DNA of 64,000 nucleotides from a bacterium (lineage in GTDB: Bacteria > CAIWAD01). The position numbers and the translations under genes are program-made. The stretch spans positions 62,001-126,000 of the forward strand of contig JAUIFJ010000010.1 in assembly GCA_030429345.1 (NCBI GenBank), given 5' to 3'. Positions within the stretch are counted from its first letter, which is position 1; each line of letters opens with the position of its first letter. The notes under the pieces were generated by a model. That model did no database searches, was not told where the DNA came from, and was given only the letters and a program-made list of their open reading frames with translations. This document shows positions 5,638-63,784 of this stretch, one piece after another.

Positions 5638-7443
5638 ATGGCGCGGATTCCGGAAAGCGTGATCCAGCAGGTGCTCGACAGCGTCGACGTGGTCGACCTG
5701 GTGGGCGAGTACCTGAGCCTCAAGCGCTCCGGCAGCCATTACAAGGGGCTGTGTCCCTTCCACCAGGAGAAGACCCCCTCCTTCACGGTCAATCCCTCGC
5801 TGCGCATCTTCAAGTGTTTCGGCTGCGGCAAGGGCGGCAACGTGATCGGTTTCCTGATGGAGGCCGAGGGCCTGGGCTACCGCGAGGCCGTGCGCCAGCT
5901 CGCCGAGAAGGCCGGCATCCCCTTCCACCTGGACGGCGAGGAGTCGCCCGAGCGTCGCACACGCAGCGAGCTGCTCTACCGGGTCAACGAAGAGGCCCGC
6001 GACTGGTTCATCCGCAACCTGGACGCCGCCCTGCGGGGCCAGGGGCCGCTGCCGGCCTACCTGGAGAAGCGGGGGCTGGACCACGAGACCCGCAAGCACT
6101 TCCTGCTGGGCTTCGCGCCGGAGGCATGGAGCGGCTTTCTGGATCACGGCCGCAGCCAGGGCTTCGACGAGAAGCTGCTGGTCGACAGCGGCCTGGTCAT
6201 CGAGCGCGAGGACGGCCGCCGCTACGACCGCTACCGCGGGCGGCTGATCTTCCCGATCCGCAACGTGAGCGGCAGCGTGATCGGCTTCGGCGGTCGCGTG
6301 GTCGGCAGCGAGGACAAGGGCGCCAAGTACATCAACAGCCCGGAGACCGAGCTGTACCACAAGGGCCGCGAGCTCTACGGCATCTTCGAGGCCAAGAACG
6401 AGATCCGCCTGGCGGGCAGCGCCGTGCTCGTCGAGGGCTACATGGACGTGATCAGCCTCTGGAAGGCCGGCTTCCGCAACGCGGTGGCCAGCCTGGGCAC
6501 GGCGCTGACGCAGGAGCAGGCCCTGTTGCTGAAGCGCTTCTGCGACAGCGTGATCTTCCTCTACGACGGGGACGATGCCGGCCAGAAGGCGATGGCCCGC
6601 GGCGCGGAAAGCCTGCTGGCGGCCGGGCTGGCGCTGCGCGTCTGCCGCCTGCCGCAGGGACTGGATCCCGACGATGCCGTATCACAACTGGGCCAGGAGG
6701 GCTTCAGGGCCCTGCTGGAGGCTTCCGAGGACTACTTCCTCTACCGCATCGCCGAATACCGGCGTCGGGGGCAGGACGAGGGGCCGCGCGCCTACCGGGA
6801 CTTTGTCACCACCCTTTTGTCCGGCGCCCTGCGCATTGCCGACACCCTGCAGCGCCACGAGCAGCTGCAGCGCATCAGCCGGGCCAGCGGGATTCCGACC
6901 GACGAGCTGCTCGAGCTGGGCAAGGAGCTGCAGCGCGCCGATCGCCCCCGGCCGGAAGAGGAGAGTCCGCGCGCCGAGCTGCGCCCGGAAAGCCTGGACC
7001 GCGAGGGGCGGCGCGTGCTTGGCCTGTTCCAGCTCTTCATGCGCAATCCGGAATTGCGTGATACGATTTCCGACGAGCTGGACCTGGGCGGCTGCGAGCA
7101 TCCCCTGCTGCGCGCCGCCTTCTCCGGCGCTCTCGAGGCGCACCTTGATCCGGAAACCAGCGTCGACAGCTGGGCCCATGCCCTGGAGAACCCGGCCCTG
7201 CGTCGCCTGGCGCTGGACGGGCTGGTGGAGGAACCGCGCCCCGGGGATGCCCGCGAATGCGACGACCTGCTCTTCAACCTGCGCCAGAATGACCTGCGCA
7301 CGCGGCTCAAGGAGATCCAGCGCAGCTTTGCCTCCCCCGAGGAACTGCCGGCAGGGGAACGCGCGGCGCTGGAACAGGAATTCGTCGAATTGAACAGGCA
7401 CCTGCGCGAACTGCTCGTCGCCTATCGCCGCAAGCACCGCTGA
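5638..7443 (+). CDS. dnaG: DNA primase DnaG
   Basis: The 601-residue protein starts MARIPESVIQQVL and carries the CHC2 zinc finger (Cys39, His42, Cys60, Cys63), the RNA-polymerase-like catalytic core and a TOPRIM domain (AVLVEGYMDVI, then IFLYDGDDAGQKA with acidic metal ligands). The C-terminal part is the less conserved helicase-binding region. It makes the RNA primers for replication. The ATG lies 1 bp after the mutS2 stop, so translation is probably coupled. In many bacteria dnaG is followed by rpoD; here it is followed instead by a secreted beta-propeller gene. Confidence 0.97.
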   Translation: MARIPESVIQQVLDSVDVVDLVGEYLSLKRSGSHYKGLCPFHQEKTPSFTVNPSLRIFKCFGCGKGGNVIGFLMEAEGLGYREAVRQLAEKAGIPFHLDGEESPERRTRSELLYRVNEEARDWFIRNLDAALRGQGPLPAYLEKRGLDHETRKHFLLGFAPEAWSGFLDHGRSQGFDEKLLVDSGLVIEREDGRRYDRYRGRLIFPIRNVSGSVIGFGGRVVGSEDKGAKYINSPETELYHKGRELYGIFEAKNEIRLAGSAVLVEGYMDVISLWKAGFRNAVASLGTALTQEQALLLKRFCDSVIFLYDGDDAGQKAMARGAESLLAAGLALRVCRLPQGLDPDDAVSQLGQEGFRALLEASEDYFLYRIAEYRRRGQDEGPRAYRDFVTTLLSGALRIADTLQRHEQLQRISRASGIPTDELLELGKELQRADRPRPEEESPRAELRPESLDREGRRVLGLFQLFMRNPELRDTISDELDLGGCEHPLLRAAFSGALEAHLDPETSVDSWAHALENPALRRLALDGLVEEPRPGDARECDDLLFNLRQNDLRTRLKEIQRSFASPEELPAGERAALEQEFVELNRHLRELLVAYRRKHR

Positions 7444-17932: not shown

Positions 17933-20797
17933 ATGGCGGCAGACCCCGAAACTTCCCTGCAGCAAGGCCTGGAGAAGCTCGCCGAGGAGCTCGTCTTTGC
18001 CGAACTGGGCGAAGCCGACGCTTCCCGGGGGCTGGCCGAGCTCATGGACAAGCTTGCCCAAGGCGCGGAAGAGGCGGGACTGCAGGAGATCCGCCTGCTC
18101 TTTCGCGAAGGGGCGCGCTTCCTGCATCGTCTGGGAAACGGGGAACCGCAGTCCTGCGCGGAACCTGCAGAGAGCCTGACCCTGCTGGTGCAGGCCCTGC
18201 AGCAGCTGGTGGTCGAGAAACGCCCTCTGCGCGAGGTGCTCCTGCCGGGCGACATGGATCTGCCGCTGGAGGAGCTGGGCCTGGCTTCTTCCAGCGACGA
18301 GGATCCGGAGCTCCAGGGCTGGGCCTGGTGCCTGGCCCAGCTGCCCCGCAGCGCCGGCGAGGAGATGCTCGCCGAGTTCCTGCAGGACCAGATCGGAATC
18401 CTGGAAGAAATGGAAGAGCTGCTCCTGCGCCTGGAGCAGCAGCCTCTGGCGGAGGACCTGGGCGAGCTGAAACGCCGGATCCACACGCTGAAGGGCGAGG
18501 CCGGCCTGCTTGGCCTGGCGGAAGTGGGCCGCCTGTGTCACGCCCTCGAATCGGCGATCGAAAGCCGTCCTTTCGGGAAAATCGACAGCCTGGTCTTCGA
18601 ATGCCGCGACTGGCTGATGAAGAAGCTGCTCTGGTGCGAGGACAAGGGGCCGCGTCCGGAAAGCCCGGATACGCTGATCGAGCGCCTGCTCGAACAGGAG
18701 GAGGCCGATTCCGGTCCGGTGATGGCCGCCGCGGACCTGGAGCACACGGGCGCTGGCGACTTCCTGCGGATTCCGGACGACACGGACATGCTGGCCGACT
18801 TCATCCAGGAGTCCCGTGATCACCTGGAGCACGTGGAGCTGCAGCTGCTGCGCCTGGAATCCGACGAGTACAACGAAGAAGACCTGAACGCCGTCTTCCG
18901 CGCCTTCCACACCATCAAGGGCCTGGCCGGATTCTTCCAGCTGGACGCCATCCAGTCCATGGCACACGAATCGGAGAGCCTGCTGGACAAGGTACGTTCC
19001 GGCAAGGTGGCCATCGTCGCGAGTACCCTGGACATCATCTTCGACTGCGCCGACATGCTGAAGAAGATGGTCGCCGCCCTGGCAGAGGCCCTGGAGAGCG
19101 GACAGCCGACGGCGGCGATCCCCCCCAGGGACGAGCTGCTGCACCGTGTGACAACTCTGCGATCGGCGCCCGCCGCCCGGAACACGAAACCGGATGAGCG
19201 CCCGCTGGGACAGATCCTGGTGGAGAACAGGGCCTTGCCCGTGGAGGAGCTGGAAGCCGCGCTGGAGAAGCAGCGCGACCTCCGTGTGCCGAAAGTGGGC
19301 GAGATCCTGGTCGAGGACGGCATGGCCCCCCGCCGCGTGGTCGACGAGGCCCTGCGCAGGCAGCGCGAGGAAGCGCCGCAGAAGCCGATCGGCCAGTTGC
19401 TGGTCGGCAACCGCCAACTGAACCCCGAAGACCTGGACGCGGCGCTCAAGCGCCAGCAGGAGCCGCGGGCCCCCCGCCTGGGCGAAGTGCTCGTCCGCGA
19501 AGGCAAGGCCAGCGCCGGCGATGTACGACAAGCGCTCAAGGGCCAGGGTCGAAATGGCGCGCAGGCCCGGGCGCGCGTCAGCGACATCGTCAAGGTCGAA
19601 TCGCACCGGCTCGACCTGCTGGTGGACACGATCGGCGAACTGGTGATCGCCGAGACGATGGTCGTGCGCAATCCGGAGATCCTCGAGCAGGGGGGCGAGA
19701 ACGGCCGGCACCGCATCCTGGGGCAGCTGGACAAGATCACGCGCGAGCTGCAGGAAATGGCCATGTCCCTGCGCATGGTCTCGCTGCGGAACACCTTCCA
19801 GAAGATGGCCCGTCTGACACGGGATGTGTCACGAAAGGTCGGCAAGCCTGTCGCCTTCCGCACGGAAGGGGAAGAGACCGAACTGGACAAGAACCTGGTG
19901 GACCGCATCGGCGATCCTCTGGTGCACATGATCCGCAACGCGGTGGATCACGGAATCGAGGACGATCCCGCCGAACGCCTGGCGGTCGGCAAGCCCGAGG
20001 CGGGGCAGGTGACACTGCGCGCGAGTCACAAGGGCGGCGGGATCTGGATCGAGGTCGCCGACGACGGCAAGGGGCTGGACCCGGAAAAGATCCGCGCCAA
20101 GGCCATCGAGCGCGGCCTGCTGGCCCCCGAGGACCGGCCCAGCGAGCGCGAGCTGCTGCACATGATCTTCGAGCCCGGCTTCTCGACGGCCAAGACCGTC
20201 ACCGATGTCTCCGGCCGCGGGGTCGGCATGGATGTGGTACGCCGCAGCATCGAGGTCCTGCGCGGATCGATCGAGGTGCAGAGCGAGCCCGGCAGGGGCA
20301 CGCGCTTCATGATCCGCCTGCCGCTGACCCTGGCGATCATCGAGGGCATGGTGACGCGGATCCAGGATGTGTGCTACATCTTTCCCACGCTGTCCATCGT
20401 GCGCCTGCTCGATCCGGAGGACGCGCACTTCGAGACGGTCGGGCGGACCCAGCTGCTTCTTCGCCTGGGGCAGGAACTCGTGCCGGCCTTCGACCTGGCC
20501 GAGGTCTACGGACTGCATCGGCGCTCGGACCGGAAGCCGCACGGGGTCTGCGTCATCGTAGAGGACGACAACGGCCGCGCCGCCTTCTTCGTCGACGAGC
20601 TTGTCGGACAGCAGCAGATCGTCATCAAGAGCCTGGGACAGACCTTCCAGGACCTGAAAGGCCTGAGCGGCGGGGCGATCATGCCCGACGGCCGCGTGGG
20701 ATTGATTGTAGACGTGGCCGGGCTCGTAAGACAGGCGATGCCGGCGGGATCAGGACGGCGAGCCGTCCATGAAACGGCACCGGCACTGCCGGCATAG
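17933..20797 (+). CDS. cheA: Chemotaxis histidine kinase CheA1 with two HPt domains and MshEN-like repeats
   Basis: The 954-residue protein has an N-terminal helical region, HPt1 with His184 ([12 protein letters not shown]) and HPt2 with His326 ([11 protein letters not shown]). Four about 30-residue repeats follow (residues about 424-540) in the form xLGxxLVxxxxLxxxxLxxALxxQ. Next come the dimerisation helices, the HATPase ([19 protein letters not shown], then [13 protein letters not shown]) and a C-terminal CheW-like domain. CheA proteins autophosphorylate and pass phosphate to CheY and CheB. The repeats occupy the place of the usual CheY-binding P2 domain and resemble MshEN, a c-di-GMP-binding module of type II/IV secretion ATPases. 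The kinase heads a plus-strand operon with MCPs, cheW and cheR. Confidence 0.93.
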
Positions 20798-20822: not shown

Positions 20823-22736
20823 ATGAGTTTGACGAGCACTTTCGGAATCAACGAGCAGAACCTCGAAATACGGCGTCGATTCATCCGCCTCGACGAGGAC
20901 GACCGGCAGCGCCTGCTCGAGCTGAAGGACTGGGCCGAGGAAGTCGCCGCCGACGTGGCGCGGGAGTTCTACGACTTCCAGTTCTCCTTTCCCCGTACCA
21001 AGGCCTTTTTCGACGACATCGCCGCGAAAAAGAACATTCCCCTGCCGCAGCTGCGCCAGGCCCTGGAAGCAGCGCAGGCCGGGTATTTCCGGGAAGTCTT
21101 CCGCGGAGCGGAGAGCAACTGGGGCGTGGAGTACTTCGAGAAGCGGCTGTTCGTCGGGGCGACGCACGACCGGATCAACCTGCCCTTCAAGTGGTACATC
21201 GGCTCCTACACCGAGTACATGGCGGTCGCGCGCAAGATGCTGGACCGGAAGTTTCCGGACGACCCTGCCAAGGTCCTGGACGCCCTGCTCAGCCTGTCCA
21301 AGGTCTTCAACTACGACATGCAGGCCATCGGCGACAGCTTCCTGCTGACCACCCTGCAGTCGGTGGGCATCGATGTCGAGTCGGTGGAGGCCGCTTCCGA
21401 CGAGGATCGCACCGAGCATGTAGGCACCATGAAGGAGCAGATCGGCCTGCTCATGGAGCAGATCTCGGCCATTGCGCAGGACCAGCTGGACGAGCCCTGT
21501 CTGGACACCGCGGTTCCCGGGCGGCTGGGCTTCGCCTTCAAGGAGGCTGTTACACGCCTGCGCTCGGCTTCCGACGACCTGCGCGACCTGGCGGAAGGGA
21601 CGATTCCCGAATTCCTGGACGACAGCGTCCAGGGCACGATCGCCGGTTCGGTCCACCGCACGCGGCATGTGATCCGCGACCTGATCGGGACCATCGAGGA
21701 GCAGGTGGAACGGGCGCAGCGTGGCGAGCTGAAGAGCCGCATCGACAGCTCGACCTTCAAGGGGGCCTTCCGCAAGCAGCTCGACGGCATCAACACCATG
21801 CTCGACCGCATTCTCGAACCGATGAATCACACCTTCGAGACCCTGGACAAGATGGCCCAGGGCGACCTGACGGCGCGCATCGAGGGCGAGTTCGAGGGTG
21901 ACCACAAGCAGGTCCAGCTGCAGGTCAACAGCGCTCTCGAGTCCATGGAAAGCACCTTCGGCAGCATTGTCGAGTCCGTGGTGCAGGTCAAGAGCGCCAG
22001 CGGGCAGATCGCCGACGGAGCCAAGACCTTCGCCGACGGGGCCAACATGCAGGCGGCGAGCATCGAGCAGATCTCGAGCTCAATCGAGCAGATGTCGGCC
22101 ACTGTCGAACAGAACGCCGACAACGCCCAGAACGCCAGCGGCCTGGCCCATGAATCACGGACGCATGCCAGCGCCGGGGGCGAGGCGATGACCCGCATGA
22201 TCGAGGCGATCCAGCGCATCAAGGACAGCAGCGACCAGACGGCGAAGATCGTCAAGACCATCGACCAGATCGCCAGCCAGACCAACCTGCTGGCGCTCAA
22301 CGCCGCCGTGGAGGCCGCGCGCGCCGGCGACGCCGGCCGCGGATTCGCCGTCGTCGCCGAGGAGGTGCGCAATCTGGCCCAGCGTACGACAGAAGCCGCC
22401 CGTTCGACCTCGGACATGATCTCCGATTCCGTGCGCAACGCGGATTCCGGAGTGCGCATCACATCCGAAGTCAACCAGGTGCTGAAGGACATCGTCCAGG
22501 GAACCACCAGCGTCAACGACCTGGTGGCCGAGATCGCCCGCAGCAGCAAGGAGCAGGCGGAAGGCGTGCGACAGATCAATGCCGCCGTCGCCGACATGGA
22601 TCGTGTGACGCAAAGCAATGCCGCCGGCAGCGAGCAGTCCGCCGGCGCGGCGCAGAGCCTGGACAACCAGATGGTCAGCCTGAACCGCCTGGTGTCCCGC
22701 TTCCGCATTGGCGCACAGGCTCAGAGCCAGTTCTAG
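20823..22736 (+). CDS. Globin-coupled methyl-accepting chemotaxis protein (HemAT-like)
   Basis: The 637-residue protein has no membrane helices. Residues about 12-160 match the globin-sensor (protoglobin) fold, with a candidate proximal heme ligand His115 in [19 protein letters not shown]. HemAT has the similar HVRIGLEPKWY. A helical linker and HAMP-like region (about 320-380) lead to the signalling hairpin, with tip [20 protein letters not shown]. It would sense O2 or another diatomic gas and control CheA1 through CheW. I chose ATG 20823 because GAGGG lies 7 bp upstream; an in-frame ATG at 20817 is too close. It follows cheA1 by 25 bp. Its C-terminus ends in SQF and lacks the acidic tail seen on the next MCP. 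Confidence 0.9.
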
Positions 22737-28148: not shown

Positions 28149-29084
28149 CTACATCGCCTCGACGACCGTGGTGGCGGCGCGGCGCAGGGCCGGCAGGTAT
28201 TGCCTGGCGGCGTAGTCCAGGCCCTGGTAGATCTTCAGCTCGTCCTTGTCGAAGATCTCGATAGCGCCGTTGTTCTTTAGCTTGGCGCTCATCGCCGATC
28301 CCTGCTTGGCAATGGTGCTGACGATCACGACCGGGATCGGCTTGTACTTCATCAGTTTCTTGAGAAAGGTATTGCCGTCCATGCGCGGCATGACCACGTC
28401 CAGGGAAATCACGTCCGGGTCGCTCTCGAGGATCTTCTCTCGCGCCTCGTAGGGATCCTCGGCATAGGCGCAGACTTCCAGGTCCTCGCTGTCCGAGATG
28501 CAGCTGCCCAGCAGCCGTCTCACGGTTGGACTGTCGTCGACGACCAGCACGCGGATCTTGCGTCCCCGAATCTTGCGGACCTTGTCCTCCTGCTGCACAT
28601 TTTCGCTCAGCCGTTGGATGGGCGTGCAGCGTACCTCGCCCGTGCCGGAGTGCATGTGGATCTTGCGCCCCAGGTTCCCGCCCAGGTCTTCCTCGACAAT
28701 GGGGATCGAGAGCTTCTTCATGAATTCCCGCGCCACTTCCGCGTTGCGTTCCGGAATGCCCGAGACGGAGGTGGTGGGAGTCGAGCCCGCGGCTCCCAGG
28801 TGACCGATCACGTGGCCGCCGCCATAGAGCTTCGCCACCAGGTCGTTCTTGCGGCAGCCGGAGGTGCGCGCCACCTGGATCAGGTTGCGGATCGCGACGT
28901 CGCCGTACTTCCCCGGCTCCAGCCCGCCGCCCGTGTCTTCCGGCAGCATGTAGTGGTTCATGCCGCCCCAGCCGTTTCTTGCGTCGTGGAGACACACGGC
29001 GACACAGGAGCCGAGCAGGGTCGAGATCATGGTCTCGCTGCGGCAGAAGGTGGATTCGCCCGGAAGCAGAAAGCGGCGTTCCAT
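28149..29084 (-). CDS. CheD-receiver fusion protein
   Basis: The 311-residue protein joins two chemotaxis domains. Residues 1-160 are CheD, the receptor glutamine deamidase: STLLGSCVAVCL supplies Cys27 and GGMNHYMLP supplies His44, matching the known catalytic pair in number and context. Residues about 177-300 are a receiver (VVDDSPTVRRLL, phospho-acceptor Asp229 in SLDVVMPRMDG, VSTIAKQGS, then a degenerate FDKDEL where Lys normally follows). The receiver is most like the N-terminal domain of CheB, yet no methylesterase domain follows. It would couple phosphorylation to receptor deamidation. It is the last gene of the minus-strand operon, 1 bp after the cheA2 stop, with AGGAG upstream. Confidence 0.9.
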   Translation of the reverse strand: MERRFLLPGESTFCRSETMISTLLGSCVAVCLHDARNGWGGMNHYMLPEDTGGGLEPGKYGDVAIRNLIQVARTSGCRKNDLVAKLYGGGHVIGHLGAAGSTPTTSVSGIPERNAEVAREFMKKLSIPIVEEDLGGNLGRKIHMHSGTGEVRCTPIQRLSENVQQEDKVRKIRGRKIRVLVVDDSPTVRRLLGSCISDSEDLEVCAYAEDPYEAREKILESDPDVISLDVVMPRMDGNTFLKKLMKYKPIPVVIVSTIAKQGSAMSAKLKNNGAIEIFDKDELKIYQGLDYAARQYLPALRRAATTVVEAM

Positions 29085-61985: not shown

Positions 61986-63784
61986 AGATCCTCCTGCTGG
62001 ACATCCCTCTCTTCCGCGAAGAGCTCCGTCAGCTGGGGCACGAGGTCTGCAGCCTGGGACCGGATCCGGCCTGTGATACGGTGATCCCGCCTGGCCAATG
62101 GACCCTGGAGAGCATTCGCGCCTCACGCCCGGCAGGATTCGAGCCGGACATTGTGCTCCAGAGCGAGAGCCTGAAACAAAGGCACTTTCCGCTGGAGCTG
62201 GCGCGCCTGCCCTGGCCCAGCGTGTGGTATTCGATCGACGGACACCTGCACCTGGACTGGCACCTGCAGATGGGCCGCCTGGTGGACCGCGTGCTCTGCA
62301 GCCAGCTCGACGTCTGCCGCGCGTTCCGGGGGCGGGGCCTGCGCGCGGACTGGCTTCCCTGGAGCGTCAACGCGCCGGCAGAGCTCCCCGCAGGGCGGGA
62401 TCTGCCCCTCGCCATGGTCGGCAGTTTCCACCCGGGGCATCGTCCGCGGCGCATGCAGCTGCTCGAGAAGTTGAAGCGACGTTTCCCCCTGGAGCTTTTC
62501 GGCCCTCCGTATACGCCATTCCTTTCGGCGCCTGAGCAGGAGGAGATCTATGGACGCTCGCGAATCGTCTTCAACGAGTCGATCGGGGGCGAGATCAACT
62601 TCCGCCTGCTGGAGGCGGCGGCCTGCGGCGCCTGTGTTCTCAGCGACGAGGCGGACAACGGGCAGGACATGCTGCTGGCTCCCGGTAGCGAGTACATCCC
62701 CTGGACCACGGCAAGCCTGGAAGAACGGGTCGAGGAACTGCTCGAGGATCCGGAACGCTGTCTGGAAGTGGGGCACAGGGCCCGAAAGCGCGTTCTCGCC
62801 GAGCACGGCCGCCTGTCCCGGGCCCGCCAGCTCGTGCAGCTTGTCCAGGGCACGGACATCCGCCCCGGGCGGGTCGAAGTGGATCACGGTCCGGTCGAAG
62901 ATGGTGTGAGACGCAGGCTGCAGGCCAACGGCCTGGGGCCGGGAGAGTTCGGCGGATCACGGCAGGTTCCAGATTGTCGTTCGGAGGAGGACCTGCTGCC
63001 CTGCCTGGAATGGCTGCGCGCCGGTGGCGAGGCATCACGCCTGCAGGGAGCGCACCCGGTGCTCGACCTGGCAATCCATGCCGATCGACTGCTGCAGGAC
63101 TTGAAGGCCCGTGCCCTGGGTGTCGACGAGGCCAAGGCCGCGGCATTCCTGCTCTGCGAAGCCTTCGTCTCGGCAGGCCGCAGGCGCACCCCCGGCATGT
63201 GGAACGGCCCCTCGGGAGAGCTTCGTTACCCGGCCTGGGAGCTGCAGCTGATCGAAGCCATGGCCCACGTCATGCCGGGGGATCCGGACTTGATTGTGGC
63301 ACATGCCCGCTGCCTGGTGCAGAGCGGCCAGCCGGAGGCGGCCCTCGATTCCCTGACGCTGCTGCTGAAGCACATTCTTTCCAGGGAGCAGAGAGTGTCC
63401 GCAGCCTTTCTCCACGAAGTCGCGGGTCTCCAGGAACAGTGCGGTTTTCGCGAGCAGGCCCTGCTGACCCTGCTGGCGCTTCCGCCGGAGGAACTGCTGC
63501 AACGGGCCACGAGTCCCCTGGCGAAGAGGGCACTCCTGCTGGCCGGAAGCACCTGGGAGGAACTGGAAGCACTGTGCAGCAGGCAACCGGATTCCGCGGC
63601 GCTCGAGCGGCTCCTGCAACAGGCGCGGACCGACACGCAGCGGCAGCGGGCCGAAGACGCATTGCAGCGCGCCCTGGCTTTCGCGCCGAACTGCTCGCGT
63701 ATACGTCGCCTGGCCGCGCAATGGAAATCGCAACCCGTTCCGGAACGAGTCCGGAGCACGGCAACCGGTGGAAAGGTTCTGTGA
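61982..63784 (+). CDS. CgeB-like glycosyltransferase with helical-repeat tail
   Basis: Residues 1-300 of this 600-residue protein resemble CgeB/YkvP-type GT-B transferases: VWYSIDGHLHLDWHLQ, LCSQLDVCRAFRGRGLRADW, LAMVGSFHPGHRPRRMQLLE, IVFNESIGGEINFRLLEAAA and CGACVLSDEADNGQDML. Residues about 330-600 are all helical with TPR-like spacing (LIVAHARCLVQSGQPEAALD). Such a tail often holds protein partners or acceptors. It overlaps the preceding gene by 4 bp and shares one base with the next start, so the whole cluster is translationally coupled. Confidence 0.82.
   Translation: MKILLLDIPLFREELRQLGHEVCSLGPDPACDTVIPPGQWTLESIRASRPAGFEPDIVLQSESLKQRHFPLELARLPWPSVWYSIDGHLHLDWHLQMGRLVDRVLCSQLDVCRAFRGRGLRADWLPWSVNAPAELPAGRDLPLAMVGSFHPGHRPRRMQLLEKLKRRFPLELFGPPYTPFLSAPEQEEIYGRSRIVFNESIGGEINFRLLEAAACGACVLSDEADNGQDMLLAPGSEYIPWTTASLEERVEELLEDPERCLEVGHRARKRVLAEHGRLSRARQLVQLVQGTDIRPGRVEVDHGPVEDGVRRRLQANGLGPGEFGGSRQVPDCRSEEDLLPCLEWLRAGGEASRLQGAHPVLDLAIHADRLLQDLKARALGVDEAKAAAFLLCEAFVSAGRRRTPGMWNGPSGELRYPAWELQLIEAMAHVMPGDPDLIVAHARCLVQSGQPEAALDSLTLLLKHILSREQRVSAAFLHEVAGLQEQCGFREQALLTLLALPPEELLQRATSPLAKRALLLAGSTWEELEALCSRQPDSAALERLLQQARTDTQRQRAEDALQRALAFAPNCSRIRRLAAQWKSQPVPERVRSTATGGKVL

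Follow-up and report, generated by a model that had tools for sequence, protein, structure and literature searches.

How might a chemotaxis histidine kinase respond to c-di-GMP; could the messenger be bound within the kinase polypeptide itself? The question is raised by a gene in a 64,000-nucleotide stretch of bacterial DNA (GTDB lineage CAIWAD01; assembly GCA_030429345.1, contig JAUIFJ010000010.1, forward-strand positions 62,001 to 126,000), referred to here as the window. The gene encodes a CheA of 954 residues (open reading frame list and Pfam), which we call CheA1 and which carries four repeats resembling those of MshEN domains. An earlier reading of this DNA, made from the sequence only, had proposed CheA1 as a possible sensor of c-di-GMP, and in that hedged form the claim is supported; the open reading frame, the position and all four motifs that it quoted agree with the translation. 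Our own answer is that the MshEN_N modules of CheA1 probably bind c-di-GMP in at least one pair and tune the output of the kinase, a reading for which the support lies in homology, a predicted fold, and the conservation of Gly and Gln across many related CheAs. The features on which the argument draws are as follows.

17933-20797, plus strand: CheA1, with two HPt domains, four MshEN_N motifs, and dimerisation, ATPase and CheW-like domains (open reading frame, Pfam)
~18362-18652, plus strand: HPt1, with the motif IHTLKG; the second of two Pfam Hpt stretches, its limits estimated from the sequence
18785-19087, plus strand: HPt2, residues 285-385; the best Hpt stretch (Pfam PF01627)
19202-19273, plus strand: MshEN_N motif 1, residues 424-447, with Pro at position 1 and Arg at position 10
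19292-19363, plus strand: MshEN_N motif 2, residues 454-477, with Lys at position 1
19385-19456, plus strand: MshEN_N motif 3, residues 485-508, with Pro at position 1 and Arg at position 10
19475-19546, plus strand: MshEN_N motif 4, residues 515-538, with Arg at position 1; the nearest to consensus at the contact positions
19202-19363, plus strand: predicted c-di-GMP module A, motifs 1+2; the second NF053729 copy, 35.5 bits alone and above the cut-off together with its neighbour
19385-19546, plus strand: predicted c-di-GMP module B, motifs 3+4, the likelier binder; NF053729 40.5 bits, with a model like MshE:c-di-GMP (TM 0.82)
19583-19768, plus strand: dimerisation domain (H-kinase_dim), residues 551-612 (Pfam PF02895)
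19913-20329, plus strand: HATPase_c, residues 661-799 (Pfam PF02518)
20345-20734, plus strand: CheW-like domain, residues 805-934 (Pfam PF01584)

The HPt, dimerisation, HATPase and CheW-like domains stand in CheA order, all above their Pfam cut-offs, and among the Pfam hits of CheA1 there is none to a P2 (CheY-docking) model. P2 is common but not universal in CheA and is not a defining feature of the family. As the sequence-only reading had placed them, the four 24-residue repeats (residues 424-538, window 19202-19546) lie in the usual P2 stretch, between HPt2, which ends at residue 385, and the dimerisation domain, which starts at residue 551, about 12 residues past motif 4. The spacers between the repeats are 6, 7 and 6 residues long. 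Additionally, the two HPt domains give CheA1 two phosphoacceptors.

What are these repeats? CheA1 scores 64.2 bits, against a cut-off of 38, with the curated NCBIfam model NF053729 ("cyclic di-GMP-binding domain-containing protein, MshE-related"). The match falls into two stretches, one on motifs 3+4 and one on motifs 1+2, which bears out the proposal that four repeats make two domains. A separate profile of 53 positions, built from 29 MshEN_N stretches of T2SSE-type secretion ATPases only, gives CheA1 46.0 bits, whereas none of 5000 shuffled versions of the segment exceeds 10.9 and no other open reading frame of the window exceeds 3.9. When a CheA profile is searched against PDB sequences, the top matches are PilF (1e-28), PilB (1e-10) and MshE (5htl; 1.5e-6). 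A profile match to MshEN had been suggested as a check, and its outcome is split between databases: the match to NF053729 is significant, but Pfam PF05157 (MshEN) does not match the CheA1 segment even at E = 10 in a search of the whole genome. In secretion ATPases, the motif pair of 53 residues is directly followed, downstream, by the PF05157 match (for example at 6746-6904 and 6485-6745, respectively, of contig G048:C233, both on the minus strand); in other words, PF05157 models a C-terminal subdomain that CheA1 lacks. The model misses the CheA1 segment because it covers that neighboring subdomain. We therefore dropped PF05157 as a test of MshEN membership and file CheA1 under MshEN_N only; the Pfam MshEN model alone overlooks proteins of this kind.

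Structure prediction points the same way. A model of all four repeats, computed from an alignment of 10 sequences, has a mean pLDDT of 75 and a pTM of 0.48; each repeat forms one short and one long helix, eight in total. Foldseek ranks PilF, c-di-GMP-bound PilF GSPII-B and c-di-GMP-bound MshE highest among the matches to this model, and several of them superpose with an rmsd of 1.0-1.5 Å across some 56 columns, although no E-value is better than 0.25. Motifs 3+4 modeled by themselves give a mean pLDDT of 85 and a pTM of 0.66; the alignment took in three ATPase sequences, a mild bias. MshEN structures were probably also part of the training data of AlphaFold. The first Foldseek match of this smaller model is MshE:c-di-GMP (5htl; TM 0.82, rmsd 1.5 Å, 58 columns), with an E-value of 0.2 that, like the other Foldseek E-values here (0.2 or worse), is not significant on its own. 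The same model aligns with Xanthomonas citri PilB, solved with a bound PilZ protein, at TM 0.66-0.67 and with the non-binding XpsE at TM 0.57. Thus, the structure prediction that the sequence-only reading had called for places the 3+4 model closest to ligand-bound MshE, and each CheA1 module (1+2 and 3+4) is predicted to be a four-helix bundle like that of 5HTL.

Which repeats pair with which? Identical residues number 14 of 24 between motifs 1 and 3 and 10 of 24 between motifs 2 and 4, with 7-9 in every other combination, and at the DNA level the two pairs share 57% identity, where codon shuffles average 34% and reach 48% at most; the motif pair thus looks like the unit of duplication in CheA1. 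In two four-repeat relatives (L005 and L124), the linker between motifs 2 and 3 is 13-14 residues long and the within-pair linkers are 7, which favors the pairing 1+2 and 3+4. We also considered a 2+3 pairing, since the four-repeat model is most confident there; the long 2-3 linker in these two orthologues and the pairwise pattern of duplication argue against it and make it the less likely arrangement.

A c-di-GMP-binding role further depends on the residues that touch the ligand. According to the text of Wang et al. (PMC5013675), the residues of a motif that contact c-di-GMP are Arg at position 1, Leu at positions 2, 17 and 21, Gly at position 3 and Gln at position 24. In CheA1, Gly3 and Gln24 are present in all four motifs, and positions 2, 17 and 21 are Leu, Ile or Val. 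Position 1 reads Pro, Lys, Pro and Arg in motifs 1 to 4. Of the ligand positions whose loss would have counted against the sequence-only reading, the Gly, aliphatic and Gln positions are thus kept in every repeat, and the Arg position holds Lys or Arg in two repeats and Pro in the other two. Motifs 2 and 4 keep six of six contact positions; in motifs 1 and 3, Arg replaces the turn Gly at position 10, and Ala or Gln stands at position 11. How damaging is a Pro at the start of a motif? The extended consensus drawn from PilF has Arg, Lys or Leu at position 1 (PMC11731258), and the GSPII-C domain of PilF, which includes a Pro-started motif (P335), binds c-di-GMP with a KD of about 0.3-0.5 µM (PMC11731258, PMC12002112). 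Pro at position 1 alone therefore does not exclude binding, and by this analogy Arg, Lys or Leu at position 1 would not be strictly defining for MshEN_N. Equally, overall similarity alone is no proof of binding, because the similar PilF GSPII-A does not bind c-di-GMP (PMC12002112).

Conservation across other CheAs speaks to the same positions. In 62 of them, aligned with a profile in which columns 3 and 24 were masked, Gly3 is found in 92 of 93 motifs and Gln24 in 89 of 93, counts that are not independent, as many of these CheAs are kin; the neighboring positions 22 and 23 vary freely. An initial count by a regular expression that itself required Gly3 and Gln24 was circular and was replaced by the masked profile.

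How widespread is the arrangement? A simple pattern finds two or four tandem motifs in 37 CheA loci, the window's included, from a set gathered by similarity to CheA1, which makes it a sample and not a census. Four-repeat CheAs occur in Hydrogenedentota (L034-L037) as well as at L005 and L124, and two-repeat CheAs with a spacer of 1-3 residues are common in Desulfuromonadales and Desulfobulbales. All 10 of the collected CheA segments that we tested exceed the NF053729 cut-off, and NF053729 matches inside a CheA in at least 7 of 60 relatives of the genome (G001, G002, G003, G021, G038, G052 and G056). The survey of CheA homologues that had been proposed thus turns up the same kind of insertion in all three of these groups and in others. 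Some of the hits come from cultured, named organisms such as Desulfuromusa kysingii and Malonomonas rubra. In the two-repeat proteins (L041, L046, L053, L059, L063, L067, L071, L077 and similar), the single pair has a spacer of 1-3 residues and not 5; in the Desulfuromonadales and Desulfobulbales pairs, the first motif usually starts with Arg or Lys and the second with Pro. The two other CheAs of the same genome lack the repeats. One of these motif-free CheAs (L125, on G000:C28) has apparent counterparts with one pair in three genomes of the same family (L018, L019 and L022), and these sequences suggest that the MshEN_N module has been gained or lost between CheAs.

The neighborhood of CheA1 is a chemotaxis cluster in the order HDOD, REC (opposite strand), CheA1, a protoglobin-MCP, CheW, MCP, CheR, HDOD and CheB; past CheB, on the other strand, follow CheD-REC, a second CheA, REC and a hybrid kinase. 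Directly downstream of CheA1, the MCP at 20829-22736 (plus strand) has an N-terminal protoglobin domain (Pfam PF11563, E 1e-24) and is likely an oxygen or gas sensor. The gene at 28149-29084 (minus strand) fuses CheD to a response-regulator receiver domain, to our knowledge an unusual combination. The sequence-only reading had linked the HDOD proteins of the cluster to c-di-GMP; the two HDOD genes are real, but they carry no evidence for c-di-GMP, and we rejected them as support, since HDOD is not, as far as we know, a recognized c-di-GMP domain. The genome encodes five GGDEF proteins, four of them with an intact GGEEF or GGDEF motif, so that c-di-GMP is probably available. It also encodes FliG, one EAL match, two PilZ proteins and one MshEN ATPase. 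A second chemotaxis locus (L136, G000:C28:112000-129000) encodes a CheA, CheW, CheR and a CheX-like protein; a PilZ match some 4 kb away from this CheA hints that c-di-GMP may be linked to that locus as well.

What would the modules do? We propose that two tandem MshEN_N modules (1+2 and 3+4) replace a recognizable P2 in CheA1 and that at least one of them, most likely 3+4, binds c-di-GMP with the sub-micromolar to low-micromolar affinity expected from characterized MshEN and GSPII domains. Pair 3+4 is the likelier binder because it has the higher score, its motif 4 is intact at the contact positions, and it adjoins the dimerisation domain. Because the modules sit in the linker between HPt and dimerisation domains, binding there may, more speculatively, alter the reach of the HPt domains to the ATPase domain or the arrangement of the dimer. 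Cellular c-di-GMP would thereby tune autophosphorylation and the signal to CheY-type regulators, in either direction.

Three rival explanations were weighed against this proposal. That the repeats are chance or unrelated helical repeats that happen to resemble MshEN seems to us scarcely credible: the silence of PF05157 and the first rank of DUF4388 among the Pfam matches to the segment would fit such an origin, but PF05157 covers the subdomain downstream of the motif pair and not the motif, and NF053729, the separate profile set against shuffled segments, and the searches of PDB sequences and of folds concur on the MshEN identity that the sequence-only reading had assigned. The main rival accepts that identity and supposes that ligand binding has been lost and that the modules now dock another protein (for instance a response regulator, taking over from P2, or a PilZ protein) or serve as a structured spacer. 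Such a scaffold would suit the P2 slot that the segment occupies, as well as two changes seen in motifs 1 and 3, Pro at position 1 and Arg where the turn Gly would be; PilF GSPII-A is an example of a domain that naturally does not bind, and the N-terminal domain of X. citri PilB, the same fold in company with a PilZ protein, is among the fold matches. On the other hand, Gln24 and Gly3, known ligand contacts, are nearly invariant in the CheAs by the masked profile, motifs 2 and 4 keep every contact position, and the non-binders XpsE and GSPII-A have, in the accounts given in their papers, lost the Gln and Gly positions (PMC5013675, PMC12002112). We regard loss of binding as a serious but unlikely alternative.

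Still less probable, in our estimation, is that CheA1 binds c-di-GMP solely for control of its localization or clustering and not of kinase activity; MshEN modules are known for varied outputs, but the short distance from the linker site to the dimerisation domain makes catalytic coupling plausible. We thus return to direct tuning of the kinase as our preferred reading, an idea that is directly testable thanks to the conserved Gly/Gln pattern and the cultured relatives. It is possible, if slightly more doubtful than probable, that CheA1 and a class of its relatives across several phyla act as direct receptors for c-di-GMP with one or two sites per protomer, in which the messenger would gate the kinase directly and not via receptors, CheR or the motor. 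If so, the messenger that governs the motile-sessile switch would reach the central kinase through a c-di-GMP module in the kinase's own polypeptide. CheA-MshEN fusions recur widely.

How does CheA1 compare with known systems? The MshEN_N of Vibrio cholerae MshE (PDB 5HTL; NF053729) resembles a CheA1 module in its two 24-residue motifs, with positions 2, 3, 17, 21 and 24 kept or conservatively changed, and in its fold. CheA1 differs in having two pairs and not one, no C-terminal subdomain, Pro for Arg at position 1 of motifs 1 and 3, a within-pair spacer of 6 where MshE has 5, and a kinase in place of an ATPase context. The motifs are joined by short linkers, of 5 residues for MshE, 7 for the matches in PilB and PilF, and 6, 7 and 6 for CheA1. 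The best PDB sequence match, GSPII-C of Thermus thermophilus PilF (within PDB 6F8L), shares with CheA1 several motifs in a row and a Pro-started motif and has a 7-residue spacer, but it belongs to a pilus ATPase and has three motifs with a C-terminal subdomain behind them. The two-motif CheAs of Desulfuromonadales and Desulfobulbales likewise have an NF053729-positive segment before the dimerisation domain, although as one pair with the shorter spacer.

The co-occurrence of MshEN with CheA and CheX was stated in 2016 (Wang et al., PMC5013675), and the association with CheA is what CheA1 shares with those proteins; the main text of that paper neither describes the architecture of a CheA of this sort nor reports a test of one, and CheA1 stands beside them with two tandem pairs, two HPt domains, Pro-started motifs and 6-residue spacers. 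In the open-access literature, we found no published test of c-di-GMP acting on CheA or of binding or regulation by a CheA-MshEN protein. CheA1 is thus a two-module example of a known, apparently uncharacterized kind. Among chemotaxis proteins with c-di-GMP inputs, the receptors Tlp1 and Cbp1 each carry a PilZ domain. The inputs described, as far as we found them, act at receptors or at CheR: the chemoreceptors are Azospirillum Tlp1 and Azorhizobium Cbp1, and MapZ acts on CheR1, in the account given by PMC12564702. Tlp1, Cbp1 and MapZ thus work at the level of the receptor or of methylation, whereas the input of CheA1 would be in the kinase itself.
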